Shown here: positions 15,240 through 30,772 of the stretch, piece after piece
How the letters are laid out: each line of letters starts with the position of its first letter
Numbering within the stretch: the first letter of the stretch is position 1
Source: an uncultured Alphaproteobacteria bacterium
Lineage (GTDB): Bacteria > Pseudomonadota > Alphaproteobacteria > MPNO01 > UBA830
Length of the DNA stretch: 46,839 nucleotides
Assembly: GCA_913046035.1 (NCBI GenBank)
Contig: CAJWSW010000013.1
Coordinates: 1 to 46,839, forward strand
Direction of reading: 5' to 3'
Notes under the pieces: generated by a model
What the model was told of the DNA's origin: nothing
What the model saw: the letters and a program-made list of their open reading frames with translations, nothing else
The model's database searches: none
Program-made: the position numbers and the translations under genes

Positions 15240-16571
15240 ATGATGAACCCAGCAGACACTGCTATCTCCGAACTATCTGAACCCGTTGGAGAGATGACAC
15301 ATGAAGATTATTATAAGGCGGCAACAAAAAGTTTGCCGGGTGCAGGCCTTGGGAGTTACTCGCTGCCGGATGATGTTCGCTTCGTTATTCATAAAGGCGA
15401 TGGTTCGCGACTGCAGGACGTTCGTGGGCGTTGGTACATAGATTACGTTGGCGGAGCGGGAGCGTTAATCCTAGGGCATGCCTTTCCAACGGTTGTCGAG
15501 GCTGTCAAGGATCAAGCAGAGAGGGGTATCCATTTTTTTGGCACTTTGAATGAGCAATGCATACAACTCGCTGAAGATCTGCAGGAAATAATCCCTTGCG
15601 CCGATCGAATAGCGTTCACTACCACAGGCTCGGAGGCGACAGCCTATGCGATGCGCACCGCCCGGGCGGCGACTGGACGCAGCAAGATTTTGAAGTTCGA
15701 AGGAGCTTACCACGGAAATCATGATTATTCGGCATTCAGTGTTACGCCCACGGCTATATCGAACTATCCGCAAGGGCGCCCTGACACAGGTGGATTGCCG
15801 GCTAATATGGCGGAGAACGTGCTGGTATCCCCTTTTAATGATCTGGAGACGGTTCGTCGTATCGTCGAGGAAAACCGAGGTGATTTAGCAGCAGTTATCG
15901 TTGAGCCGGTGCAACGCATCATCTTTCCTGATGATGAATTTTTGCCTGGATTGCGCAAGATTTGTGATGACAATGAGGTGCTTTTAATTTTTGACGAAGT
16001 GGTCACAGGTTTTCGACTTGCCCTCGGCGGCGCTCAAGAATATTTCGAGGTGCTGCCTGACCTTGCGAGCTATGGCAAAATCGTAGGCGGTGGCGGTCCA
16101 CTCGGTTTTGTGGGTGGTAAGGCGGAGTACATGGATCTAATGAGCCCTCGTAACAAAGGGCAGGCCAATTATTCTTACGTTAATGGCACGCTTCACGGAA
16201 ACCCGGTAGCCGTCGTGGCTGGAATGGCGACCTTAGCCGAGCTCAAAAGGCCCTCGTTTTACAAAGACCTTCATTCGCTTTCCGATGACGTGTGCAATGC
16301 GTGCCAGGATGTCTTAAATAAGAACGATATACCTGCGATCGCTGCAGGTAAGGCATCATTTTGGCAGATATTATTCATGGAAAAAGCGCCTCGCAATCAT
16401 GCTGATGTCATGAATTCTGATGCGGCGTCGGCGCGCGCGCTTGACTTGGCGCAAATGCATGAGGGCCTCTATGTTTTGCCGAACGTTCGCCGTTTTGTTT
16501 GCGGAGTTCACACAGGGCAAGACATTGAAGACACGGTTCGAGCACTTGATGCCGCGTGCAAGCGGTTGTGA
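15240..16571 (+). CDS. Class III PLP enzyme, glutamate-1-semialdehyde aminomutase-like
   Basis: Fold type I, class III aminotransferase of 443 residues. Seen are GAGALILGHAFP near residue 70, TTTGSEATAYAMRTARAATG near 125, the PLP-stacking YHGNHDYSA, LLIFDEVVTGFR with the PLP-contacting Asp, and the Schiff-base Lys in ASYGKIVGGGGPLGFVGG. These resemble HemL, but the protein has an N-terminal extension and sits in a hydantoinase operon, so it more likely acts on an amino acid released by the upstream enzymes (transamination or amino-group shift). Start is ATG 15240; an earlier TTG at 15183 is less likely. Its stop overlaps the next start (TGATG). Confidence 0.85.
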   Translation: MMNPADTAISELSEPVGEMTHEDYYKAATKSLPGAGLGSYSLPDDVRFVIHKGDGSRLQDVRGRWYIDYVGGAGALILGHAFPTVVEAVKDQAERGIHFFGTLNEQCIQLAEDLQEIIPCADRIAFTTTGSEATAYAMRTARAATGRSKILKFEGAYHGNHDYSAFSVTPTAISNYPQGRPDTGGLPANMAENVLVSPFNDLETVRRIVEENRGDLAAVIVEPVQRIIFPDDEFLPGLRKICDDNEVLLIFDEVVTGFRLALGGAQEYFEVLPDLASYGKIVGGGGPLGFVGGKAEYMDLMSPRNKGQANYSYVNGTLHGNPVAVVAGMATLAELKRPSFYKDLHSLSDDVCNACQDVLNKNDIPAIAAGKASFWQILFMEKAPRNHADVMNSDAASARALDLAQMHEGLYVLPNVRRFVCGVHTGQDIEDTVRALDAACKRL

Positions 16572-17281
16572 TGTCAGATATGAAGGGTGCTGGGGTCCTT
16601 TTTTCAGAGATGACGCCACCCCCTGGTTCGGAAGATCATTTCAACAAATGGTATAACGAACATCACATGCCAAGCCATGTGTATGGGGTCCCCGGTTTTC
16701 GTTCGGGACAACGATACAAAGTAACGCATAAACCTGATTACCTTGCGATTTATGATTTGGAATCGCCGGCGACGCTGACTGATGACGAATATATCAACCG
16801 GAAGTACAAGCCAGATGCGCCAACAAAAAAAATGCTGTCGGAGGTAATCGCGTTCACTCGTTATATAGGCGAGGAAATCGGCTTTCAGTTGCGTGACGGA
16901 CTGACGGTAGACGATGCATTAAATGCGCCGCTTATTTTCGGGGTTTTCATAAAACTACCGGATGATGTGACGGAGGAGTTTGTCAACTGGTATCAGACAG
17001 AACACTCTCCGATGGTACTTAGAAGTTCGCTGTGGCGCATGGTTCGTCATATGAAAATCGTAAATGCTGACCCGGAACCGTTTACGCACATGTTCATTCA
17101 CTATGTTGAGAGCGAGGACGCGCTGAAGAGTGACGAACTATCGGCGGCGCAGGCGACGGATTGGTTTAATACGCTATCCCAAAATGAGTGGTTTAAAACC
17201 CATTCGGTGATGTATCACAGGCTCGGTAAACGATATCACAAGGGTGAACCTAACGCCCAAACATTTACTTTAGATATTTAA
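16571..17281 (+). CDS. Tandem EthD/dimeric alpha-beta-barrel domain protein, function unknown
   Basis: The 236-residue protein appears to contain two related ferredoxin-like halves. The first (about residues 5-80) has FNKWYNEHHMPSHVYGVPGFRSG, written here as overlapping short motifs FNKWYNEHHMP and VPGFRSG; the second (about 110-200) has FVNWYQTEHSPM and SLWRMVRH at equivalent positions. The W-Y-x-x-E/T-E-H-x-P pattern is typical of EthD-like and related small alpha/beta barrels found beside oxygenases. The ATG overlaps the stop of the PLP enzyme. Role unknown; a small decarboxylase, isomerase or lactonase-like helper would fit the family, but no catalytic residues can be assigned. Confidence 0.68.
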   Translation: MSDMKGAGVLFSEMTPPPGSEDHFNKWYNEHHMPSHVYGVPGFRSGQRYKVTHKPDYLAIYDLESPATLTDDEYINRKYKPDAPTKKMLSEVIAFTRYIGEEIGFQLRDGLTVDDALNAPLIFGVFIKLPDDVTEEFVNWYQTEHSPMVLRSSLWRMVRHMKIVNADPEPFTHMFIHYVESEDALKSDELSAAQATDWFNTLSQNEWFKTHSVMYHRLGKRYHKGEPNAQTFTLDI

Positions 17282-17717: not shown

Positions 17718-17743
17718 GCTTCAGTGATACTGTAATAGCCTAC
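17714..17743. terminator. Possible bidirectional hairpin over two convergent stop codons
   Basis: GTAGGCT at 17714-17720 pairs with AGCCTAC at 17737-17743, and inside it CAGT at 17722-17725 pairs with ACTG at 17729-17732. The stem includes the stop codons of the convergent CMD-like and maleate-isomerase-like genes. There is no clear T-tract on either side, so termination is uncertain. Confidence 0.35.
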
Positions 17744-18467
17744 CAAGCCCCTGGATAGGATCAGAAATGCCTGCATCTCTTAGCGAGTGCCATAGTGTGG
17801 CGGAGTTACTAGAAATCACGGGCTTTTTAAGCTTTGCTTCCAGAGGTTCAATTGAATCAAAAGTATTGAAGTCCGTGCAGCATATCAGCAATGCCTCCGC
17901 GTCTCGATGGTCGACAGAGCAAGCGTGTGTGAAGACATCGGCTGGCGGGACGCGAGAGATTTTCTGAATTTCTTCGAGTGATGTATCAAGGCTAAGGCCG
18001 GCGGTCGCAAGAACCTCAACGCCATGGTCACTCAAATAATGGGCTTCGTGTTCGTTGGTCTCGGGTGTATATGGCGATGCCATGACTATCTTGGTTGCGC
18101 CGAGTGCATCAAGAGCAGCAGTTATTGCCTGCGCTGTCGAATTTGCCGGAACATTACCTGCGTCAGTCATCGTTTTTAGTAACCGGTCCGACGGGCAGGC
18201 CATCGAAGCTGCAGTGCAGGCGTATGTAGCATAGTCGACATTGCAAGCCGCCAGGTCATGCATAGCCTTGGTTAAGTCGTTAAGCATCCTTTCGAAATTG
18301 TCTTTCGCAGGATCGGAATGCAGCGGTGAGCGGGTGAAATGGAAACTGACCCCATCTGGGGCGGCCTTATGAAATTCGGCTTCATTAACCGTATTGCTCG
18401 CCGGAACGATTACCCCAATTTTAGAGCGCCACCCGATTGGCCGTATCTTTTCAAGCGACGTCATCAT
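17721..18467 (-). CDS. Maleate isomerase / arylmalonate decarboxylase-like protein (Asp/Glu racemase superfamily)
   Basis: The 248-residue protein has the two cysteine-bearing motifs of this superfamily: an N-terminal-domain Cys in YATYACTAASMA near residue 84, and a second in LLICCTDFNTFD near residue 198. The opening IGVIVPASNTVNEAEF is the typical substrate carboxylate-binding loop of maleate cis-trans isomerases. Maleate isomerase makes fumarate at the end of nicotinate-type pyridine degradation; arylmalonate decarboxylases and hydantoin racemases are close relatives, so the reaction is open. An AAGGGG ribosome site precedes the start. It is convergent with the CMD-like gene and divergent from the FAD hydroxylase. 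Confidence 0.8.
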   Translation of the reverse strand: MMTSLEKIRPIGWRSKIGVIVPASNTVNEAEFHKAAPDGVSFHFTRSPLHSDPAKDNFERMLNDLTKAMHDLAACNVDYATYACTAASMACPSDRLLKTMTDAGNVPANSTAQAITAALDALGATKIVMASPYTPETNEHEAHYLSDHGVEVLATAGLSLDTSLEEIQKISRVPPADVFTHACSVDHRDAEALLICCTDFNTFDSIEPLEAKLKKPVISSNSATLWHSLRDAGISDPIQGLGRLLQYH

Positions 18468-18571: not shown

Positions 18572-19771
18572 ATGTCTGACGAACCTCGCGTTTTAGTTTC
18601 AGGGGCTGGTCCGGTTGGCTGCTGCGCGGCACTTTATCTCGCGCAGAGGGGAATAGCTGTGACACTGGTCGACGCCGCGTCAGAGTTGCCGGAAGACCTT
18701 CGAGCGTCCACATTTCACCCTCCAACCCTCGATATGCTAAAAGAACTTGGTGTCGTGGAGAAGGTTATAGAGCAAGGTATTGTCTGTCCTATCTGGCAAT
18801 ATCGGGATGCGCGGGAGGGTGTCGTAGCGGAATGGGACCTCTCTGTTTTGGAAAATGACACTGATTACCCCTATAGGGTCCAGTGCGAGCAATTTAAGCT
18901 AACGAGAATAATTGTTTCCGAACTTGATAAGATGGATAACGTTGAAGTGCTTTTTGACGTCAAGGGCACTGGTGCGTCCCAAAATGAAGATGGCGTATCG
19001 TTATTCGTTGAAACACCAGATGGTCCCAGAACCTTACTGGGAAAATATCTGATCGCGGCCGACGGTGCATCTAGCGCAATTCGTGTTTCCCAGGGAATTG
19101 ACTTTCCCGGTTTGACTTTCCCCGAGCTATGGCTGTGTACAAGCTCGGAATTTAATTTTGAGGATCACTTTGAAAACTTAGCGCCGATAGCATACGTGGC
19201 CGATCCAGATTTTTGGTTCGTATTTGTTCGTGTTCCGGGAATGTGGCGGCTCCTTCTTCCTTCCCTTCCGGGCGAGACGGCAGATACGCTAGTTTCTGAC
19301 AAAACCGTGCAGGAGCGTATGCAACAGGTATGTGCGATTGATGGCAGCTATGAGACTTTCCACAGGACCGCATACTCAGTTCATCAGCGGGTAGCAGAAA
19401 CATACAGAAAGGGTCGTATCTTTCTTGCAGGAGACGCGGCCCACATCAATAATCCGCTGGGCGGTATGGGGATGAATGGAGGGATCCACGACGCGATGAA
19501 CCTCTCTGAAAAGATTGTAAAGGTGTGGAACGGTATTGCCGACGAAAGTGAACTTGATAAGTATGACGCCCAACGTCGCCCGATAGCGATAGATTACGTT
19601 CAGCAAACCACCATACGAAATAAAGCGATGTTAGAAGAGACTGATCCAGATGTAAGGCGCTCGAAGCACAATGAGATGAGCAAGACAGCCAATGATCCAA
19701 AACTAGCGAGAGAGTATTTGCTTCAATCGTCCATGATTACAGCTCTAAAACAAGCTGAGGCATTAGCATAA
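18572..19771 (+). CDS. FAD-dependent aromatic hydroxylase-type monooxygenase (MhpA/UbiH-like)
   Basis: Group A flavoprotein monooxygenase of 399 residues. It shows the ADP-binding VSGAGPVGCCAALYLAQRG near residue 9, the NADPH/FAD DG motif in IAADGASSAIR near 161, and the flavin-ribityl GD motif GRIFLAGDAAHINNPLGG near 285. These enzymes add one oxygen to an activated aromatic or heteroaromatic ring using NAD(P)H; some relatives open pyridine rings. A GGAG ribosome site lies close upstream of the ATG. It stands alone between a divergent maleate-isomerase-like gene and the convergent dctP gene. No C-terminal thioredoxin-like domain as in phenol hydroxylases is present. Confidence 0.87.
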   Translation: MSDEPRVLVSGAGPVGCCAALYLAQRGIAVTLVDAASELPEDLRASTFHPPTLDMLKELGVVEKVIEQGIVCPIWQYRDAREGVVAEWDLSVLENDTDYPYRVQCEQFKLTRIIVSELDKMDNVEVLFDVKGTGASQNEDGVSLFVETPDGPRTLLGKYLIAADGASSAIRVSQGIDFPGLTFPELWLCTSSEFNFEDHFENLAPIAYVADPDFWFVFVRVPGMWRLLLPSLPGETADTLVSDKTVQERMQQVCAIDGSYETFHRTAYSVHQRVAETYRKGRIFLAGDAAHINNPLGGMGMNGGIHDAMNLSEKIVKVWNGIADESELDKYDAQRRPIAIDYVQQTTIRNKAMLEETDPDVRRSKHNEMSKTANDPKLAREYLLQSSMITALKQAEALA

Positions 19772-20917: not shown

Positions 20918-22048
20918 TTAATCACGTTGGAGCGGAGATCTCTGTCCGGCTTGCTCCATAAGTGGGAGCACTTCTTCAATCCATTGCTTGCATTCAGTTT
21001 TATAATCGACCCATGAAATCAACATTCCGTCGACACCTATATTTACCAGTTTGCCGATCTCGTCGACTATTTGTTCCGGTGTGCCTATTAAAGGATAACC
21101 GCCATGCCCAGCGATGAAATGGAAACGAAATTCGTCCAGAACATCTTGGGGAAGAGTTTTTGATTGCATCCCGAAGATTTCAAGTAGGTTGTTTACTGCC
21201 TCGTAGTCGCCTTTATCAACTGCGTAATATTTCAAATAGTCTTGGGCTTCTTTTTCCGTTTCTCGGCAAACAACGTAAACGTGGATCCAGCTTTTTACGT
21301 CTCTTCCGGCGTTTCGCGCCATGTTTTTCAGGTGCGAAATTTGCGACTTTCCGCCCTCGATATCCCGCTCTTTGAGAATGACGAAGTTCATGTCAGCCTG
21401 TGTCGCTGCAAATTCTTGCCCTGCTTCCGATCCGCCTGCGTTCATGACGGGCGGCATTGGAGATTGTAACGGCTTAGGTTCACTCCACACGTTTTTAGAG
21501 TCGAACCAACGTCCTTTAAAATTAAATTCTTCGTCATGGGTCCAGATTTTGCGCACAAAGTCTAACCATTCTGTCGCGTATTCGTATCGCACGTCATGTT
21601 CGTTCCAGGCGGCACCAAACATTTCAAATTCATTTTTAAACCATCCGCAAACGACGTTTAGCGCAAATCGGCCGCCTGAAATGTGATCGATCGTGGCACA
21701 TTGCTTCGCTGCCGCGACTGGATGAGTTAACGGGACATGAGACGTCGAAAAAATGCAAGAATAGTTGGTGATTGCGGCAACCGCTGATGCCCAATTGTAC
21801 GTCTCAAACGTGCGGTTGTTGAAATTGGTGGGACCCCCGTACCCGCGCCAGCGGGCGACCGGCAATAAGACTTCGAACCCTGCCGCGTCTGCCATCATCG
21901 CTACTTCCCGCGTGTCGGGCCAGTTCATTTCCCATGAGCCCTCCGCTTGCGTAATTGTTGAGCCATGTGAGCAGTTCATTGCGATGATGCCGATTTGCAT
22001 CTTGTTTGAGTTAAACAGGGGATTTGTGTCGTTAGAACGAATCTGCAT
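20918..22048 (-). CDS. LLM-class flavin-dependent monooxygenase, RutA-like
   Basis: The 376-residue protein is a bacterial luciferase-like flavin monooxygenase. It shares distinctive stretches with pyrimidine oxygenase RutA: RWRGYGGPTNF near 67, AAITNYSCIFSTSHVPLTHP near 91, and ATIDHISGGRFALNVVCGW near 118, plus NAGGSEAGQEFAATQADMNF near 207. RutA cleaves the uracil ring at an amide bond with reduced FMN, and trigonelline ring opening also uses an LLM enzyme. A ring-opening role here is inferred. It needs a flavin reductase, and no dedicated one lies nearby. It is divergent from the hpaB-type gene and upstream of dctP in the same direction. Confidence 0.83.
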   Translation of the reverse strand: MQIRSNDTNPLFNSNKMQIGIIAMNCSHGSTITQAEGSWEMNWPDTREVAMMADAAGFEVLLPVARWRGYGGPTNFNNRTFETYNWASAVAAITNYSCIFSTSHVPLTHPVAAAKQCATIDHISGGRFALNVVCGWFKNEFEMFGAAWNEHDVRYEYATEWLDFVRKIWTHDEEFNFKGRWFDSKNVWSEPKPLQSPMPPVMNAGGSEAGQEFAATQADMNFVILKERDIEGGKSQISHLKNMARNAGRDVKSWIHVYVVCRETEKEAQDYLKYYAVDKGDYEAVNNLLEIFGMQSKTLPQDVLDEFRFHFIAGHGGYPLIGTPEQIVDEIGKLVNIGVDGMLISWVDYKTECKQWIEEVLPLMEQAGQRSPLQRD

Positions 22049-22259: not shown

Positions 22260-23828
22260 ATGGCAACTAAGGCTATCGAATTAGACAACACCGAGGTTGA
22301 TTGTGGAAAACAACCCATATGTGGTTGCATCGGCTTCTGCCGCGGTGAAGCCTTTGGAACCGGCGTAAGAACTGGTGAGCAGTACGTGGCAGGGATCCGG
22401 GACGACGGTAGACACGTGGTGCACAACGGGGAAATTATTTCTGACGTGACAACACACTCTGCGTTTGAAGGAGCAGTGAAATCAGTTGCCAGCCTCTATG
22501 ATAATGCTGCCGACCCGGAGAACCGGGAGTTAATGACGTACACGTCGCCAACAACGGGTGACCCGGTTAATCGACATTGGGCAATGCCTCGAAGTAAAGA
22601 AGAACTCATAGCTCGGCGGAAGGCGCTCACAAAAACGTCTGAGTTGACGTTAGGTCTTATGGGCCGCAGCCCAGACCATGTTGCGGGTTTTTTCGCCGGA
22701 TATGCGATGGCGCCGGAAGTATTGGCGCGGGGCGGACAGCAATACGCTGACAACGCTATCAAATTTTACGAATTCTGTCGTGATAACGATATCTACGTAG
22801 CCTACACGATAGTGCCGCCTCAAATCGATCGGACAAAACCAGCCCATCAACAGGAGCCGCCGGATTTGTACGCGGGTATCGTCGATGAGCGCGATGACGG
22901 AGTGATCATCCGAGGTGCACAAATGCTGGGAACAGGCGCTGCTCTCTCAGACTTTGTTCAACTAAGCACGATACATCCAATGAGGCAGGGCGATGAAAAC
23001 TATGCGATTTCGGTCGCGGTACCCTGTAATGCGCCGGGTGTAAAAATATTCTCGAGGCGCTCCTACGCTTCCGCGGCAAGCAGCGTCTTTGACTATCCGC
23101 TTGCCACCCGCTTCGACGAGACTGACTCATTGTTCGTATACGATGACGTATTTGTGCCCTGGGAAAGGGTGTTTGTTTATAAAAATGTCGATGTCGCTCG
23201 CGCACAGTGGTTCGAAGCCCCTGCTCACATTATGGGCAATAGTCAGGCCCAAATCCGCTACATGACCAAGCTGAGATTTCTTGTTGGGCTCGCAAAGAAA
23301 ATCACAGATATGAATGGAACCGGTTCGTTGCCACCCGTTATTGGTGAACTCGGCAAGCTTGCGACTTATGCGACGATGTATGAGGGATTAGTTTACGCTC
23401 AAGAGGCAGAATGCTGGACAAACGATAATGGATATGTGCTGCCGAGCATGCCGCACATTTATGCAAACATGAACTTGCAGTCTGAAATAAATCCAAAGCT
23501 TTTGGATATCGTTCGAGAATTATCGGGTGGCGGGTTAATCCAGCTTCCGTCTTCGGTTGAAGACCTCAGAAACCCAGAAATACGCGATCAGGTAACGAAG
23601 TACGTTAAGTCGCCAGGTGTTGCAGGTGAAGACCGTATTAAACTTCTCAAGCTGGCATGGGATATGGTGGGCTCTGAATTCGCGGGTAGGCACGAGCAAT
23701 ATGAAAAGTTCTATGCTGGCGCTCCGTTTATTGTGAAGACACACGCGCACCGTACATACAATTGGGATAAGGCGACTTCGCTGGTTGATTACGCTCTGTC
23801 CGGCTATGACATAAACGGTCGGAAGTAG
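22260..23828 (+). CDS. HpaB/PvcC-type FADH2-dependent hydroxylase
   Basis: A 522-residue member of the 4-hydroxyphenylacetate 3-hydroxylase large-component family (acyl-CoA-dehydrogenase-like fold). Seen are RTGEQYVAGIRDDGRHVVHN near residue 38 (family GxxYIxSLRDGRxVY-like start), AYTIVPPQIDRTKP near 180, IIRGAQMLGTGAALSD near 219, the VFVPWERVFVYKN block near 298, and a C-terminal SEFAGRHEQYEKFYAG. These enzymes hydroxylate phenols, pyrroles or other rings with reduced FAD supplied by a partner such as HpaC. No HpaC-like reductase is in the window. An AGG ribosome site precedes the ATG, and DUF1185 and enamidase-like genes follow in the same direction. Confidence 0.88.
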   Translation: MATKAIELDNTEVDCGKQPICGCIGFCRGEAFGTGVRTGEQYVAGIRDDGRHVVHNGEIISDVTTHSAFEGAVKSVASLYDNAADPENRELMTYTSPTTGDPVNRHWAMPRSKEELIARRKALTKTSELTLGLMGRSPDHVAGFFAGYAMAPEVLARGGQQYADNAIKFYEFCRDNDIYVAYTIVPPQIDRTKPAHQQEPPDLYAGIVDERDDGVIIRGAQMLGTGAALSDFVQLSTIHPMRQGDENYAISVAVPCNAPGVKIFSRRSYASAASSVFDYPLATRFDETDSLFVYDDVFVPWERVFVYKNVDVARAQWFEAPAHIMGNSQAQIRYMTKLRFLVGLAKKITDMNGTGSLPPVIGELGKLATYATMYEGLVYAQEAECWTNDNGYVLPSMPHIYANMNLQSEINPKLLDIVRELSGGGLIQLPSSVEDLRNPEIRDQVTKYVKSPGVAGEDRIKLLKLAWDMVGSEFAGRHEQYEKFYAGAPFIVKTHAHRTYNWDKATSLVDYALSGYDINGRK

Positions 23829-23913
23829 GGCAATATTTAAAAGGGTTGCTCCTCTAGATTGGGGCGGGAGATAAGATAAAAGCGCTCAAAATCGTATAAA
23901 AGGAGAGCCCTTG

Positions 23914-24489
23914 ATGACAGTCCGACGCCTTTATACTGTTGTGGAGGAAACCCTCCATGATCGTGGGCAAATAAGAGACGAGCCACTGCGTAAGGTGGCT
24001 GTCGTTGCAGTCATTAATAACCCATTTGCCGGACATGGTTACGTCGAAGACTTAAGCGCTTTAACTGATGCCAGTGTTGAACTCGGGACAAAAATCGCGG
24101 AAATGGGTGCTTCGCAGATGGCACCCTATACCGTTGACTCATACGGCAAGGCTGCGCTTATCGGAACGGCCGGTGAACAAGAACATGGAGTGGCATGCCT
24201 TACGACAGTCTACGGGAATGTTCTGCGTGACGCAGTTGGCGGCGGAAAGGCTTGGATTTCGTCTATGACAAAAAGGGTGCGCCCCGGTGAGCATGTGGAT
24301 ATACCGCTCGCTCATAAGGACGCATTATTTGTGCGGTCACATTATGATGGAATGACGATCATGGTTCCGGATGCACCGTTGGAGGACGAAATCTGCGTTA
24401 TTTGCTGTTTCGCGAACCGAGGTCGGCTAAATCACCGCGTCGGCGGGCCGAGTAAAGAAGATATCGTTGGTAACGATGGTCTGAGATGA
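23914..24489 (+). CDS. DUF1185 (AA_synth, PF06684-type) protein
   Basis: The 191-residue protein matches what I know of the DUF1185 'amino acid synthesis' family: an N-terminal LYTVVEETLHDRG strand-helix, NNPFAGHGYVEDLSAL near residue 36, SYGKAALIGTAGEQEHG near 75, KRVRPGEHVDIPLAHKDALF near 123 and RSHYDGMTIMVPDAP. Structures exist for the family, but its chemistry is not established to my knowledge. The conserved His, Glu and Asp residues in these blocks suggest an enzyme. Start is ATG 23914, seven bases after AGGAGA; a TTG one codon earlier is possible. It sits between the HpaB-type and enamidase-like genes with 10 bp to the latter, so it is probably part of the same pathway. Confidence 0.8.
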   Translation: MTVRRLYTVVEETLHDRGQIRDEPLRKVAVVAVINNPFAGHGYVEDLSALTDASVELGTKIAEMGASQMAPYTVDSYGKAALIGTAGEQEHGVACLTTVYGNVLRDAVGGGKAWISSMTKRVRPGEHVDIPLAHKDALFVRSHYDGMTIMVPDAPLEDEICVICCFANRGRLNHRVGGPSKEDIVGNDGLR

Positions 24490-24499
24490 GGGGGGCTAT

Positions 24500-25702
24500 A
24501 TGAAATCGGCAATCGTTAACCTCAAAACGATCGTCTCCGGCGATTGGCGAAAGCCTTTTGCTAAAGGCGATTCCATCGTGATGAACAATGGGAAGATCGT
24601 GAAGGTAGGAACGATCAGCGCAAAGGAAGAGAAATCTTGCGACGTTGTACTCGACGCGGGTGGAATGACCGCAATGCCTGGCTTAATCGATTCGCAAGTA
24701 CATGTGGCATTTGCCGATTATACGCCGCGCCAGCGAACCATCGGATTTTTGGAGAGCTATCTTCACGGCGGTGTTACAACATCTATTTCCGCAAGCGAGG
24801 TTCATGTTCCGGGGCGACCGACAGATCCAGACGGTGTTGTTGCCCTGGCGGTTGCAGCTAAAAAAAGTTTCGATAATTATTCGCCAGGTGGAATGCATGT
24901 GCACGCTGGCGCCGTTATCCTTGAACCCGGTCTGACGCAGAAACACTTTAATGACGCGGCTAAACAGGGCGTCTGGCTTGCGAAGGCAGGTTTTGGAAAA
25001 TTCAAATCACCTTTTGACTATAAGCCATATGTGGCTATGGCAAAGAAGGCGGGAATGATCGTAAATGTTCATACCGGCGGCGCGTCAATTCCGGATTCCT
25101 CGCCGATTACCGGAGATCATCTTTTGCATATGCAGCCAACCGTTTCTTTTCATATTAACGGAGGGCCCGTCGCAATGCCTGACAAAGACTTCGCCCGCAT
25201 AATTAATGAGAGCGATATCGCAATGCAGATTTGTCAGGCGGGGAATATAAGGACGGCAATAATGTGCCTCAACATGGCGATTGAGGCGCAGGAATTCGAC
25301 CGATTGATCTTCGCAACCGATACCCCGACGGGCACCGGAATGATGCCGCTTGGCATGATCAAAACAGTGGTTGAAATGGCTTGCCTAACTGATCATGCGC
25401 CTGAAATGATGGTGTGTGCTGCGACCGGGAACAACGCCAACGTTTACAAGCTAAATACCGGTTTCATCAAGCGTGGCAAAGACGCTGATATCATGATTGT
25501 TGACGCACCATTGGGTAGTACGGGAAAGACTGCGCTAGATGCAATTAAACATGGCGATTATCCGGCGATCCCTGCTGTTTTCACTGACGGTATTCCTCGG
25601 TTTATTCACCGGTCCCGTAATACCCCGCCATCAACACGGAAGATGCGACTAAAGCGGAACACAGTGTTGCAAGAGTTTGAACCTGGCCGACACACGCTTT
25701 GA
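24500..25702 (+). CDS. Enamidase-like amidohydrolase (nicotinate-fermentation Ena homologue)
   Basis: The 400-residue protein resembles, over its whole length, enamidase of Eubacterium barkeri, which opens 6-oxo-1,4,5,6-tetrahydronicotinate to 2-formylglutarate and ammonia. Shared blocks by recall are ADYTPRQRTIGF near 74, LHGGVTTSISAS near 89, VPGRPTDPDG, VNVHTGGASIPDSS near 191, SFHINGGPVAMP near 214, FATDTPTGTGMMPLG near 270 and AATGNNANVYKLNTG. The amidohydrolase HxH metal motif is altered: the segment near residue 66 reads IDSQVHVA, with Gln in place of the first His. The active site may therefore hold one metal or none. GAGGGGGG precedes the start. Close homology is certain only at family level; activity on a cyclic enamide is inferred. 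Confidence 0.8.
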   Translation: MKSAIVNLKTIVSGDWRKPFAKGDSIVMNNGKIVKVGTISAKEEKSCDVVLDAGGMTAMPGLIDSQVHVAFADYTPRQRTIGFLESYLHGGVTTSISASEVHVPGRPTDPDGVVALAVAAKKSFDNYSPGGMHVHAGAVILEPGLTQKHFNDAAKQGVWLAKAGFGKFKSPFDYKPYVAMAKKAGMIVNVHTGGASIPDSSPITGDHLLHMQPTVSFHINGGPVAMPDKDFARIINESDIAMQICQAGNIRTAIMCLNMAIEAQEFDRLIFATDTPTGTGMMPLGMIKTVVEMACLTDHAPEMMVCAATGNNANVYKLNTGFIKRGKDADIMIVDAPLGSTGKTALDAIKHGDYPAIPAVFTDGIPRFIHRSRNTPPSTRKMRLKRNTVLQEFEPGRHTL

Positions 25703-25730: not shown

Positions 25731-25759
25731 TGTACACAATGTCCACTTAGTGTACACAA
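25731..25759. promoter_or_regulatory. Probable IclR operator (TGTACACAA repeats)
   Basis: TGTACACAA occurs at 25731-25739 and again at 25751-25759, a 20-bp period (two helical turns). TGTACAC at 25731 and GTGTACA at 25750 also form an inverted repeat. The block lies at about -3 to +25 of the promoter and ends 2 bp before the iclR ATG, the position expected for autorepression. It also leaves no room for a normal ribosome site. Confidence 0.65.
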
Positions 25760-25761
25760 CC

Positions 25762-26493
25762 ATGCTGCAAGCACGCAACGACAACCCGAAAACTGTTCGC
25801 TCCATAGAGCGGGCGATAGACGTTTTAGTGTGTTTTGATAATGCTACGCCGGAGCAAACCGTTACCGATCTGCAAAAACGGACTGGCCTCAGTCGGCCGA
25901 CGCTGTATCGGATACTCTGTACGCTCGAGGGCAAGGGCATGATCCGTTCCTCTGGCGCCCCACAAAAATTTTCACTCGGACATGAGGCAAGCCGTCTCGC
26001 GGCGAGTTGGATAGGAGTAAATGAACTTTTAAGGGTAGCAGGACCCGTTCTCCGTCGTTTGTGGGAAAAAACGGAAGAGACTGTGGCTTTGTTCGTCGCA
26101 ACTAATAACGAACGAAAGATATGTATTGAAGAAATTGAAAGCCGCCATGCGCTGACCTTTAAACGGGGTGTTGGTTTTACCGAGAACCTGTCAGTTGGCG
26201 CTTCTGGAAAGGCGATGCTGGCTTTTACCGATGCCGGTCGGAATGATCCGGAGTATGGCGACGTTAGGCGAACTGGTGTTCGAGTTTCTAAAGGGGAAAT
26301 TATTGAGGGTGCGGTAGCCATCGCTGCTCCTGTTTTTGACTATGATGGTTTGGTTAAGGGGAGCGTCTGTATTTTTGGCCCCGAAGTTCGATTGTCAGAC
26401 GACAGGCGTGACACATGTATTGCGTATGTTCGGGAAGCTTCCCGAGAAATTTCATCCGCTTTGGGATTTACCAAACCGGCGGTGGCTGAATAG
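25762..26493 (+). CDS. IclR-family transcriptional regulator
   Basis: The 243-residue protein has the N-terminal winged helix (VRSIERAIDVLVCFDNATPE, then TDLQKRTGLSRPTLYRIL near residue 38) and the C-terminal IclR effector domain (RGVGFTENLSVGASGKAMLA near 136, GAVAIAAPVFDYDGLVKGSV near 189). The family controls aromatic and heteroaromatic catabolism and usually senses a pathway acid. ATG 25762 was chosen because it follows directly on the operator-like repeats; an in-frame GTG at 25750 lies inside them. The stop is 10 bp before the first Rieske gene, so regulator and oxygenase are co-transcribed from the promoter at 25699. Likely self-regulated. Confidence 0.9.
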   Translation: MLQARNDNPKTVRSIERAIDVLVCFDNATPEQTVTDLQKRTGLSRPTLYRILCTLEGKGMIRSSGAPQKFSLGHEASRLAASWIGVNELLRVAGPVLRRLWEKTEETVALFVATNNERKICIEEIESRHALTFKRGVGFTENLSVGASGKAMLAFTDAGRNDPEYGDVRRTGVRVSKGEIIEGAVAIAAPVFDYDGLVKGSVCIFGPEVRLSDDRRDTCIAYVREASREISSALGFTKPAVAE

Positions 26494-26503
26494 GAGAGAA
26501 ACC

Positions 26504-27838
26504 ATGGATGCATTATCGAGCGATATCCGCGTTGCAGAAATGATTGATGATAGGTCCGCTGACGGCATCTTTCGCGTCGACCGCGACATATATCTCAACC
26601 CAGAGGTTTTTGAGGCGGAGCTCAAAGCGATTTTTGAATCCAATTGGATTTTTCTCTGTCATGAAAGTCAGGTTAAGAAACCGGGTGACTATTTTGCAGC
26701 TTATCTTGGTCGGCAACCGGTGTTCGTTCATCGTCAGGAAGACGGAGGCCTCAAAGGGTTTTTGAATGCGTGTTCGCATCGTGGAGCAATCTTAACGCCA
26801 ACCGCACAAGGCAATGCAAAGACGATTACCTGTCGATTTCATGGGTGGACTTATAAATGCAGTGGCGAATGTCTGCGCATAAAGGAAGAAGAGGGGGGCT
26901 ATGGCAAGGACTTTGACAGAAGTGTTTACGACCTGCGGGAAATTGGTGCCATAGCAAGTTATAACGGCTTCGTCTTCGGCAGCCTATCGGCGGAGGTTCA
27001 ATCACTTGAGGATTTCTTGGGGGAATCGAAAGCCTTCATCGACTTCGTTTCCCACCAATCGCCAGCCGGCCTGGAAGTACTCCCAGGAAGCCAAAAATAC
27101 ATTGTGGGCGGAAATTGGAAGATGTCGACCGAGAATGCGGTCGACGGATACCATACCAGCACAGTTCACCGGATTTTTGCCAGCACTGTCAAACAGAGAG
27201 AAGTCCGCGAGGGTTATGAAGGAATGATGCGGACTGAGACTGGTCGCCTTTCGAAGAAAAATGTCCGTAACGGTTGTTACGATTTGGGCCAAGGACACAT
27301 GGTTATTTGGGCTGATCGTGATCCGGTCTCAACGTCGCCCCTCTCAGAGGCCGAGGAACGCCTCGAACGCGAATATCCGACTGGAAAGGTAAACTGGATG
27401 CTCCGTCGAGGACGCAATCTGATTATTTTTCCTTCGCTAATGATCAATGATTTTGCTGCGACCCAAATTCGGACATTCAGGCCCATATCAGCAGATGAGA
27501 CTGAGGTGACGATATACTGCCTTGCCCCGTCGGATGAGAGTAAAGAGGCGAGGTATGCCCGGCTCCGGAAATTTGAGGATTTTTTTATGGCGAGCGGAAT
27601 GGCCACCTCAGATGACGTAGTGGCTCTGGAAGCGACACATCAGGGTAGTCACGCTCGGGTTGTAAAATGGGGCGAATTTCATCGTGGTTTGGGTTCAATT
27701 ATCGAGGGGCCGGATGATGTCGCAGAAGAGGGGGGCTTTAAACCTGCAACTAGCAACACAAGCTGGGATCATGAGACTTTATATTACAGTTTTTATCGGA
27801 GGTGGCGCGACCAGCTCGCCGCTGTGAGAGGGGAATAA
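26504..27838 (+). CDS. Rieske aromatic-ring dioxygenase large subunit, copy 1 (BenA/AntA-like)
   Basis: The 444-residue alpha subunit has an N-terminal Rieske domain with CSHRG and CRFHGWTYKC, supplying the Cys-His and Cys-His ligands of the [2Fe-2S] cluster. In the catalytic domain, ENAVDGYHTSTVH carries the bridging Asp and the two iron His, and GMATSDDVVALE carries the third iron ligand Asp. All catalytic residues are kept. It resembles benzoate/anthranilate dioxygenase alpha subunits. The ATG at 26504 follows a GGAG by seven bases; the frame is open farther upstream inside iclR but that part is not oxygenase. The stop lies 1 bp from copy 2. Substrate probably an aromatic or heteroaromatic carboxylate. 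Confidence 0.92.
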   Translation: MDALSSDIRVAEMIDDRSADGIFRVDRDIYLNPEVFEAELKAIFESNWIFLCHESQVKKPGDYFAAYLGRQPVFVHRQEDGGLKGFLNACSHRGAILTPTAQGNAKTITCRFHGWTYKCSGECLRIKEEEGGYGKDFDRSVYDLREIGAIASYNGFVFGSLSAEVQSLEDFLGESKAFIDFVSHQSPAGLEVLPGSQKYIVGGNWKMSTENAVDGYHTSTVHRIFASTVKQREVREGYEGMMRTETGRLSKKNVRNGCYDLGQGHMVIWADRDPVSTSPLSEAEERLEREYPTGKVNWMLRRGRNLIIFPSLMINDFAATQIRTFRPISADETEVTIYCLAPSDESKEARYARLRKFEDFFMASGMATSDDVVALEATHQGSHARVVKWGEFHRGLGSIIEGPDDVAEEGGFKPATSNTSWDHETLYYSFYRRWRDQLAAVRGE

Positions 27839-27839
27839 A

Positions 27840-29159
27840 ATGGATGGAAGTATACTCACTGACAATCTGTCCACGTTGGTAGATGACCGGGTCGATGAAG
27901 GCATGTTCCGCGTCGACAGGTCTGTCTACATAGATGAAAGCATTTTTGAGCAGGAGATTTCCAATATCTTCGAAAAATGCTGGATATTTCTATGTCACGA
28001 GAGCCAAGTGGCTAATCACGGTGATTATTTCTGGACTGAGATCGGTCGTCAGCCGGTTTTCGTGCACCGTCAAGAAGATGGCTCCCTCAAGTGCTTCATT
28101 AATGCGTGTTCGCATCGTGCGGCTATTCTAACACCGTTCCGGCAGGGTAATGCCAAGACACTTACCTGCCGTTTCCACGGCTGGACCTACAAATGCTCTG
28201 GGAATTGCGTCGGTATTAAGAACGAGGAGGATGGCACTGACCGGAGCAGATTTGACCTGCGTGAAATTGCCAGCCTTGCTTCTTATCAGGGATTTATTTT
28301 TGGTAGCCTAAGCGCTGATGTGCCGGCGCTAGATGACTGGCTGGGAGCGGCAAAAATCTGGATCGACCTGATGGCGGTACAATCGCCCGAGGGTCTTGAG
28401 GTCGTGCCGGGTAGCTCAACCTACAAGACCGATGGTAACTGGAAGCTGCAAGCTGAAAATAGTGTCGACGGCTATCATGTTTCTACTGTTCATCGGGTCT
28501 TCGCACACACCATAGCTGCAAGGGAAAGCAAAGGCGAATATACCGGCATCGGAAAGACAGAGTCCGGCCGCATCTCGGGCGGTGTTCCCACTGCTTCTTA
28601 CGACCTGGGTAACGGGCACATGGCTATTTGGGCCCAGCACACGACGCCTGAAGCCCGGCCAATATGGGAGGCAAGGGAGCGGCTAAAAAACGAGCTTCCA
28701 CCTAAGCAGGTGGAGTGGATCCTGACGAAAGGCCGCAACCTATATATTTTCCCAAATGTAATGTTGATGGATAATCCGTCGACGCAGATACGGGTTATGA
28801 AACCAATATCGGCGAACCAGGTCGATATTAGCGTCTATTGCGTTGCGCCCAAGGGAGAGAGCACCAAAGCACGGGCTGGTCGCTTGAGAAAATTTGAGGA
28901 TTTTTATCTGACTGCTGGAATGGCAACATCAGACGACCTTGCCGCGCTAGAGGATACACATGAAGGGTCGATGGCCCGGAGTGCCAAGTGGAGCGAGTTC
29001 AATCGCGGCCTCAAAAGCATAACCCATGGCGCCGATGCCGATGCCAGAGAACTCGGCTTTGAACCTCAGGCCTGCACCGATAATTGGAACCACGAAGTCT
29101 TGTATCATGGATTTTACCGGCACTGGCTCAGAATGATGAAAGGAGAATTCCAAGGATGA
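27840..29159 (+). CDS. Rieske aromatic-ring dioxygenase large subunit, copy 2
   Basis: The 439-residue protein is clearly paralogous to copy 1. It shares long blocks such as WIFLCHESQV, GRQPVFVHRQEDG and CRFHGWTYKCSG. The Rieske ligands are intact (CSHRA, with Ala where copy 1 has the usual Gly, and CRFHGW), as are the iron ligands in ENSVDGYHVSTVH and GMATSDDLAALE. Both copies should therefore be catalytically competent. Its ATG comes 1 bp after the stop of copy 1, and its own stop overlaps the beta-subunit ATG (ATGA). The pair may form alternative or mixed hexamers with the single beta subunit. Differences concentrate in the catalytic domain, suggesting different substrate preference, but this is inference. 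Confidence 0.92.
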   Translation: MDGSILTDNLSTLVDDRVDEGMFRVDRSVYIDESIFEQEISNIFEKCWIFLCHESQVANHGDYFWTEIGRQPVFVHRQEDGSLKCFINACSHRAAILTPFRQGNAKTLTCRFHGWTYKCSGNCVGIKNEEDGTDRSRFDLREIASLASYQGFIFGSLSADVPALDDWLGAAKIWIDLMAVQSPEGLEVVPGSSTYKTDGNWKLQAENSVDGYHVSTVHRVFAHTIAARESKGEYTGIGKTESGRISGGVPTASYDLGNGHMAIWAQHTTPEARPIWEARERLKNELPPKQVEWILTKGRNLYIFPNVMLMDNPSTQIRVMKPISANQVDISVYCVAPKGESTKARAGRLRKFEDFYLTAGMATSDDLAALEDTHEGSMARSAKWSEFNRGLKSITHGADADARELGFEPQACTDNWNHEVLYHGFYRHWLRMMKGEFQG

Positions 29160-29644
29160 CCGATTTGCAACAAGAGGTCACTAACCTGATTTATCAGGAA
29201 GCGACACTTCTTGACCGACATCATTGGGATGAATGGATAGACTTGTACACCGAGGATGCTGTCTACTGGGTGCCATCCTGGGCAAATGAAGAAGAGACGA
29301 CTGATAATCCTGAAATGAATCTTAACTTGATATACCTGCGTAATCGCGGGGGGCTTGAGGATCGTGTTTTTAGGATCGAAAGTCGGGATTCATACGCTTC
29401 CGTGCCCCTCGACCGGACAGTGCACGTTGTCGGCAACGTGTTAACGGGTAATGAAAAGGCCGGTGAGGTCGAAGCGACCGCTAATTGTATCATACATTCA
29501 TATGGCAAGAAGGGTGGTCTGACACGTGCCAGCCTCTATGATTTTAAGTTGCGTCGCGAGGATGGCGAACTCAAAATTAGCCAGAAAAAAATTACATTTA
29601 TCGACGACCGGCTCGAAGGGCCGATAGACGTTTATCACCTCTGA
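29156..29644 (+). CDS. Rieske dioxygenase small (beta) subunit, BenB-like
   Basis: The 162-residue protein has the SnoaL/NTF2-like beta-subunit fold: IYQEATLLDRHHWDEWIDLY near residue 12, followed by EDAVYWVPSWANEE, and the C-terminal ISQKKITFIDDRLEGPIDVY. BenB and AntB have the same pattern and length. The subunit is structural in alpha3beta3 hexamers. It is the only beta subunit for two alpha genes. The ATG overlaps the stop of copy 2, which implies coupled translation; an upstream in-frame start inside that gene is not needed. Confidence 0.92.
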   Translation: MTDLQQEVTNLIYQEATLLDRHHWDEWIDLYTEDAVYWVPSWANEEETTDNPEMNLNLIYLRNRGGLEDRVFRIESRDSYASVPLDRTVHVVGNVLTGNEKAGEVEATANCIIHSYGKKGGLTRASLYDFKLRREDGELKISQKKITFIDDRLEGPIDVYHL

Positions 29645-29749
29645 ATACAGGTGTAAGTGCTATAGACTTCTAGGAAAGCGGTTTGTCTCTCCGAATTGAT
29701 TTGGCGCTATATGGAAGCTAGATCATTTAGGTGATTAAGGGGTTAATTG

Positions 29750-30772
29750 ATGAATACGCATAACGTGACGTTGGTGTTCGAAGACGGCAGGGCCGTTAGA
29801 TTTGATGCGAACGAAGACGATAACCTTTACTTTGCGTGCCTGAAGAACAAGGTGCGGCTTTTGACCGACTGCCTGGAAGGCGCTTGTGCAACCTGCAAGG
29901 GGCTTTGCACTTCCGGAACATACTATCTAGACGAATATACTGATGAGGCGCTGACAGCCGAAGAATTCGCCAAGCGTGAGGTGTTGACATGCCAAATGCA
30001 TGTTACTTCCGATTGCGTGATTGAATTTCCCTACGAATCTAAGCTCGCTCTCAAGTCAAAGCCGGACGTCCGAATGGCTACCGTGGTTGCAGCCGATATG
30101 GTTTCGTCGACGGTTTCTCAATTGGTGGTGAAGCCTAATTCTGACCAAGAGCCGATACCTTTTCTACCTGGCCAATACGTACATCTTGCAGTTCCCGGAA
30201 CTGACGAGCATCGCTCATATTCTTTTGCGAATGCGGCCTCTGAAACGGGAGCGTACACATTTTATATTAAGATCCTCGAAAACGGCGAGATGAGTAACTA
30301 CTTGACCAGTAATGTAAAATCCGGTGACGAAATGACGGTGGAGGGACCGTTTGGTCGGTTTTATATGCGGCCCATTAATCGGCCAATCCTTATGGTTGCA
30401 GGAGGTACAGGCCTCGCGCCGATGCTTAGTATGCTTGATACTATGGCAGGGCAGGACAACAAAGGTTTTCCGGTGCATCTGTTGTACGGCGCAAACCATG
30501 CTGAAGAATTGTTCGGTCTCGATCAAATTGCCGGTTATGGAGAGCAGGGGCTAGATTTGTCGTTGGAAGTTAGTGTAGTCGACGCTGATAACAGTTGGGA
30601 GGGTGAAAGTGGACACGTGACTGACCTGTTGCGTCCTGATCTGTTAAATGGTGGTGATTGCGATGTTTACTTGTGTGGCCCGCCGCCGATGATCGACGCT
30701 GCCAATGCCTGGCTTGTTGAGAATGATATGAGGTCAGCGCAGATATATTCTGAAAAATTTGTCGCAAGCTAA
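29750..30772 (+). CDS. Rieske dioxygenase reductase, BenC-like (ferredoxin + FAD/NAD domains)
   Basis: The 340-residue electron-transfer protein passes electrons from NADH to the oxygenase. The N-terminal plant-type ferredoxin domain has the cluster ligands in CLEGACATC (Cys-x4-Cys-x2-Cys) and a fourth Cys in VLTCQMH. The FAD domain shows HRSYSFANA, the NAD domain GGTGLAPMLSML, and the C-terminus YLCGPPPMIDAAN. This order and length match BenC/AntC. Start ATG 29750 lies seven bases after AAGGGG. The 105-bp gap after the beta subunit has no evident terminator, so all four oxygenase genes probably share one transcript. Confidence 0.93.
   Translation: MNTHNVTLVFEDGRAVRFDANEDDNLYFACLKNKVRLLTDCLEGACATCKGLCTSGTYYLDEYTDEALTAEEFAKREVLTCQMHVTSDCVIEFPYESKLALKSKPDVRMATVVAADMVSSTVSQLVVKPNSDQEPIPFLPGQYVHLAVPGTDEHRSYSFANAASETGAYTFYIKILENGEMSNYLTSNVKSGDEMTVEGPFGRFYMRPINRPILMVAGGTGLAPMLSMLDTMAGQDNKGFPVHLLYGANHAEELFGLDQIAGYGEQGLDLSLEVSVVDADNSWEGESGHVTDLLRPDLLNGGDCDVYLCGPPPMIDAANAWLVENDMRSAQIYSEKFVAS

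Follow-up and report, generated by a model that had tools for sequence, protein, structure and literature searches.

The gene under study lies in a 46,839-nucleotide stretch of alphaproteobacterial DNA (the window) and encodes a member of an amidohydrolase subfamily, here called K-type, that is the sister of the true enamidases (E-type) and keeps their fold. This sister group displays a real, clade-wide remodelling of the metal site, together with a recurrent change of His to Gln in the HxH motif. The metal ligands of amidohydrolases are usually taken as fixed subtype marks; here the bridging ligand differs between sister clades (Glu versus Lys), and the first His has then repeatedly given way to Gln, with the other ligands unchanged. 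On the sequence data, we somewhat favour the view that the K-type proteins are paralogous hydrolases whose rebuilt metal site would serve a different enamide or lactam, derived from an N-heterocycle, in an aerobic pathway.

Enamidases open nitrogen-containing rings, and an earlier note on this DNA had described the window protein as enamidase-like along its full length. That description is well founded, as phmmer gives an end-to-end match to the Eubacterium barkeri enamidase (Ena; 2vun, Q0QLE9) over query residues 2-383 (8e-105, 354 bits), with 46% identity. The AlphaFold2 model (mean pLDDT 91.7) superimposes on 2vun with TM-scores of 0.92/0.95 (Z 57.6, 1.7 Å over 380 residues). By full-length amidohydrolase homology and by fold, the protein therefore belongs to the enamidase family. 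The second-ranked structural match is isoaspartyl dipeptidase, a carboxylated-Lys enzyme, at Z 31.6. The start of the reading frame coincides with the start position in homologues and has a purine-rich stretch directly upstream. The gene, its putative metal-site residues and its neighbours are listed in Table 1.

Table 1. Positions in the window of the K-type gene, its metal-site residues and neighbouring genes.
Feature	Position	Strand	Basis
K-type enamidase-like amidohydrolase, 400 aa	24500..25702	+	Full-length 2vun match, AlphaFold2 model
Gln66, codon CAA, replaces first His of HxH (Ena His67)	24695..24697	+	Alignments
His68, second His of HxH, invariant	24701..24703	+	Alignment
Lys162, strand β-4, replaces Ena Glu164; invariant in K-type	24983..24985	+	Alignment and model strand 160-163
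His191, end of β-5 (Ena His193), invariant, HTGG	25070..25072	+	Alignment and model
His218, after β-6 (Ena His220), invariant, FHING	25151..25153	+	Alignment and model
Gln243, β-7, replaces Ena Glu245; second clade-specific switch	25226..25228	+	Alignment and model
Asp274, after β-8 (Ena Asp276), invariant, TDTP	25319..25321	+	Alignment and model
DUF4286 protein, recurs beside K-type genes	16556..17281	+	
FAD_binding_3 monooxygenase, closest solved relatives PnpA and HspB	18572..19771	+	
Luciferase-like (LLM) monooxygenase, conserved in syntenic relatives	20918..22048	-	
HpaB-family flavin monooxygenase	22260..23828	+	
PF06684 (AA_synth/DUF1185) partner gene, 10 bp upstream of K-type gene	23911..24489	+	
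IclR-family regulator	25750..26493	+	
Two tandem Rieske oxygenase alpha subunits (BenA-like)	26336..29159	+	
Rieske oxygenase beta subunit and BenC-like reductase	29084..30772	+	

Besides the fold, the window protein shares with Ena the residues His68, His191, His218 and Asp274 and the HTGG and HxNGG motifs, whereas His67 has become Gln66, Glu164 has become Lys162 and Glu245 has become Gln243, and the gene neighbourhood is another one. The reading of Q-V-H near residue 66, with a CAA codon, proved correct, and the phmmer, MAFFT and profile alignments agree in placing Gln66 in the Ena His67 column. The later His residues and Asp, previously described as kept, are indeed present, as is His68. 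The earlier note had also found no equivalent of an Ena Glu in the region before the HTGG block. There is no Glu in that column, but it had overlooked that Lys162 occupies it: the Ena motif VGEVGLG, which contains Glu164, reads LAKAGFG here, with a one-residue deletion adjoining Lys162 that leaves some uncertainty in the alignment at this point. The Ena ligand set comprises HxH, a β-4 Glu, two further His residues and an Asp, with roles in 2vun that we take from the established superfamily pattern. Two of these six canonical columns (Gln66 and Lys162) are altered, in a conserved and clade-specific manner, which upholds the earlier idea of a rearranged metal site. The model places the ligand residues at, or close to, the C-terminal ends of β strands 1, 4, 5, 6 and 8, where an amidohydrolase metal site would be expected.

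Homologues were sought in 385 genomes of the class, 27 of the order and additional ones of the phylum, as well as in plasmids and a GTDB contig collection, giving a tally of 153 distinct full-length sequences, in which His68, His191, His218 and Asp274 are invariant. These fall into 96 E-type proteins, some encoded beside 6-hydroxynicotinate reductase, that always combine HxH with the β-4 Glu, and 57 K-type proteins, including that of the window, that without exception have Lys at position 162. The residue-243 column, Glu245 in Ena, is likewise Glu in every E-type and Gln in every K-type. Of the 57 K-type proteins, 27 carry His and 30 carry Gln at position 66, with no third residue, and none of the 96 E-type sequences has Gln there. 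The K-type sequences form a single clade with support of 100/100, within which five changes are required to explain how His and Gln are distributed; well-supported branches force at least four of these, so that a single change is ruled out. Because the earliest-branching members (from Rhodococcus, Thermomicrobium, Alteribacillus and others) carry His66, the simplest reading is that Gln66 arose more than once. Among the homologues, Gln66 is encoded by both CAA and CAG, and the K-type proteins examined from the window's own order all have Gln at this position.

Comparison of the window gene with the copy from the same genus gives a pN of 0.024 against a saturated pS of 0.74, and with more distant Gln copies pN is 0.09-0.21 at a pS of about 0.8. 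The protein is 97% identical to the same-genus copy, compared to 72-94% for the products of neighbouring genes. Selection on the reading frame is strongly purifying by these measures, pointing to a working, constrained enzyme. The difference between pS and pN speaks against decay or sequencing error, and a pseudogene is ruled out by this purifying selection together with the existence of 29 other Gln sequences from many families.

The genomic surroundings of 37 K-type and 51 E-type loci were scored, although a few genera dominate the E-type loci and the counts are therefore not independent. A PF06684 gene is found nearby at 30 of the K-type and 36 of the E-type loci. An HpaB or PnpA/HspB-like FAD monooxygenase accompanies 19/37 K-type genes but only 3/51 E-type genes, while 6-hydroxynicotinate reductase is near 34/51 E-type genes and near none of the 37 K-type genes. 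The annotated E-type cluster of Sulfitobacter pontiacus (L183) carries the nicotinate gene set. Nicotinate-cluster E-types of this kind share family membership and nearby PF06684 genes with the window protein, but they retain HxH and Glu and lie beside 6-hydroxynicotinate reductase, UPF0280 and molybdenum hydroxylase genes. Such neighbourhood differences disfavour a single function for the two clades, and the absence of the reductase from K-type loci, along with the frequent presence of flavin monooxygenases, lends indirect support to the earlier suggestion of a new substrate. The island in the window holds LLM, FAD, HpaB and Rieske oxygenases, a hydantoinase A/B pair, an aminotransferase, and carboxymuconolactone-decarboxylase-like and arylmalonate-decarboxylase-like genes; relatives share synteny over a large part of it.

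Position 66 does not follow the neighbourhood. His66 and Gln66 K-type genes have the same kinds of neighbours, and Gln66 itself is thus no substrate marker. The question of whether homologues next to Rieske genes share the Gln has a divided answer: they do in the window and at loci L184-L188, L039 and L058, but Rieske genes are lacking around many Gln copies, so the residue does not mark Rieske-linked copies. Nor was any link found in the neighbourhoods, called in part by tblastn, between Gln66 and the choice of HpaB or FAD monooxygenase.

Could the window protein nonetheless be an ordinary enamidase for 6-oxo-1,4,5,6-tetrahydronicotinate, serving the organism's own nicotinate pathway, with the His/Gln and Glu/Lys exchanges neutral in a binuclear site? 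Its 46% identity to Ena is in keeping with this, as is the fact that its own genome has a 6-hydroxynicotinate reductase (on a different contig from the window gene) and yielded no E-type enamidase. Against this, the nicotinate operon of this genome has a hydantoinase A/B pair where the relatives G763 and G765 have the E-type gene, which looks like a non-orthologous replacement. As the E-type place is filled in this way, the missing nicotinate enamidase is unlikely to be the window enzyme. Moreover, an E-type copy is present in 15 of the 20 genomes of the order searched for it, and in 14 of these it is joined by a K-type copy, which argues for two functions. Given also the absolute clade specificity of Lys162 and Gln243 and the lack of reductase neighbours at all 37 K-type loci, we regard this explanation as unlikely. 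The nicotinate-type operon itself (L193, G000:C3, 13195-17009), compared here with L196 and L197, comprises molybdenum hydroxylase, 6-hydroxynicotinate reductase, UPF0280 and PF06684 genes as well as hydantoinase A/B.

For the favoured reading, a hydrolase with a rebuilt metal site, precedents exist for both altered ligands. Subtype I amidohydrolases such as dihydroorotase and isoaspartyl dipeptidase use a Lys as the bridge between two metals, and the window protein has its Lys at the bridging position of β-4 (strand 160-163), along with the His/His/Asp set. It differs from these enzymes, to which it is about 15-18% identical, in having Q-V-H in place of the β-1 HxH that 27 of the 57 K-type proteins keep, and carboxylation of its Lys is putative. 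In the E. coli dihydroorotase, two zincs are bridged by a carboxylated Lys (PMC3880350), and by analogy Lys162 is a good candidate for such a bridge. The first His is known to be replaced by Gln in the NagA proteins of E. coli and V. cholerae, which have QxN instead of HxH, the E. coli site being mononuclear; an HxH-to-QxN mutant of the mycobacterial MMNagA retained reduced activity with a raised Km (PMC6016474). The window motif is QxH, sharing the Gln but not the Asn, and the β-4 residue is Lys. It is these dihydroorotase and NagA precedents that lead us to prefer a hydrolase whose alpha site is either weakened or empty.

Under this scheme, Lys162 would take the place of the β-4 Glu as a bridging ligand, probably carboxylated as in subtype I. 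With Gln in the place of the first HxH His, the alpha metal would be either more weakly bound, via the Gln side chain, or missing. Catalysis would then depend mainly on a beta metal held by the Lys162 carbamate, His191 and His218, with Asp274 as the base. The substrate would be a cyclic or acyclic enamide or lactam that an aerobic, oxygenase-based route makes from an N-heterocycle, and it would be opened by hydrolysis, jointly with the PF06684 partner. A one-metal site, as had been suggested, is possible, but it does not follow from the missing Glu, since the residue that replaces it is the Lys that serves as the two-metal bridge in subtype I. That position 66 takes only His or Gln suggests that its side chain still coordinates or hydrogen-bonds.

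An alternative arrangement would have Lys162 uncarboxylated, its ammonium group replacing the alpha metal, such that all K-type proteins are one-metal hydrolases in which His66 has become dispensable and is free to change to Gln. This would account for the repeated loss of the first His being tolerated in K-type lineages only, and for the change of Glu245 to Gln243. However, the other alpha-side ligands, His68 and Asp274, are invariant, and the restriction of position 66 to two residues suggests that the side chain there still has to coordinate or to form a hydrogen bond. We consider this arrangement distinctly unlikely.

A different chemistry has also been weighed, namely that of a mononuclear-iron ring-cleaving dioxygenase of amidohydrolase origin, acting after a flavin monooxygenase on a hydroxylated pyridine. 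The precedent is KpiC of Arthrobacter sp. IN13, an amidohydrolase-family protein reported as a dioxygenase that cleaves 3,4-dihydroxypyridine and adds two oxygens to it, following a flavin monooxygenase in an N-heterocycle pathway; NicX, an aminopeptidase relative, has been modelled with one metal site lost (PMC7356986). K-type genes are often found beside flavin monooxygenases, and a two-His, one-carboxylate set persists in His191, His218 and Asp274. But KpiC is far more distant (475 aa, about 28% identical to Ena), half of the K-type members keep all His ligands, and at many K-type loci no oxygenase lies within reach, so that this chemistry seems improbable. The still longer shot is that the K-type represents a second, independent mononuclear-iron ring-cleaving dioxygenase derived from amidohydrolases, with the Gln forms lacking the second metal site.

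The K-type clade is a good test case for metal swapping in such enzymes, as its natural His/Gln pairs, at about 60% identity, offer a direct test of the need for a second metal and of the role of the Lys. The clade also links the PF06684 partner with N-heterocycle breakdown. The association of PF06684 with enamidase-family genes extends to anaerobes and beyond the Proteobacteria (loci L061, L063 and L065), and within nicotinate clusters the PF06684 genes often occur as tandem pairs, suggesting a general partner for N-heterocycle ring opening. A search of the literature on PF06684 beside amidohydrolases, KpiC follow-ups and trigonelline genes yielded hardly anything other than PMC2954203, PMC7356986 and PMC7913881. 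PF06684 proteins have a chorismate-mutase-like fold and an unproved function (PMC2954203), and the homologue TgnF is said, in work cited in PMC7913881, to stimulate succinate-semialdehyde oxidation in trigonelline breakdown. Apart from the family's two solved members, the model of the PF06684 protein had only weak structural neighbours (Z no higher than 6.4), and for this reason we claim no Rid-like function.

Among the other genes of the window, the two tandem Rieske alpha subunits are served by one beta subunit and one reductase, and the first of them is absent from some syntenic relatives (L188, L058 and L039). As its listed start overlaps the IclR gene, the true start is probably further inside. 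A gene of the arylmalonate decarboxylase/Asp-Glu racemase family, at 17721-18467, could be maleate-isomerase-like.
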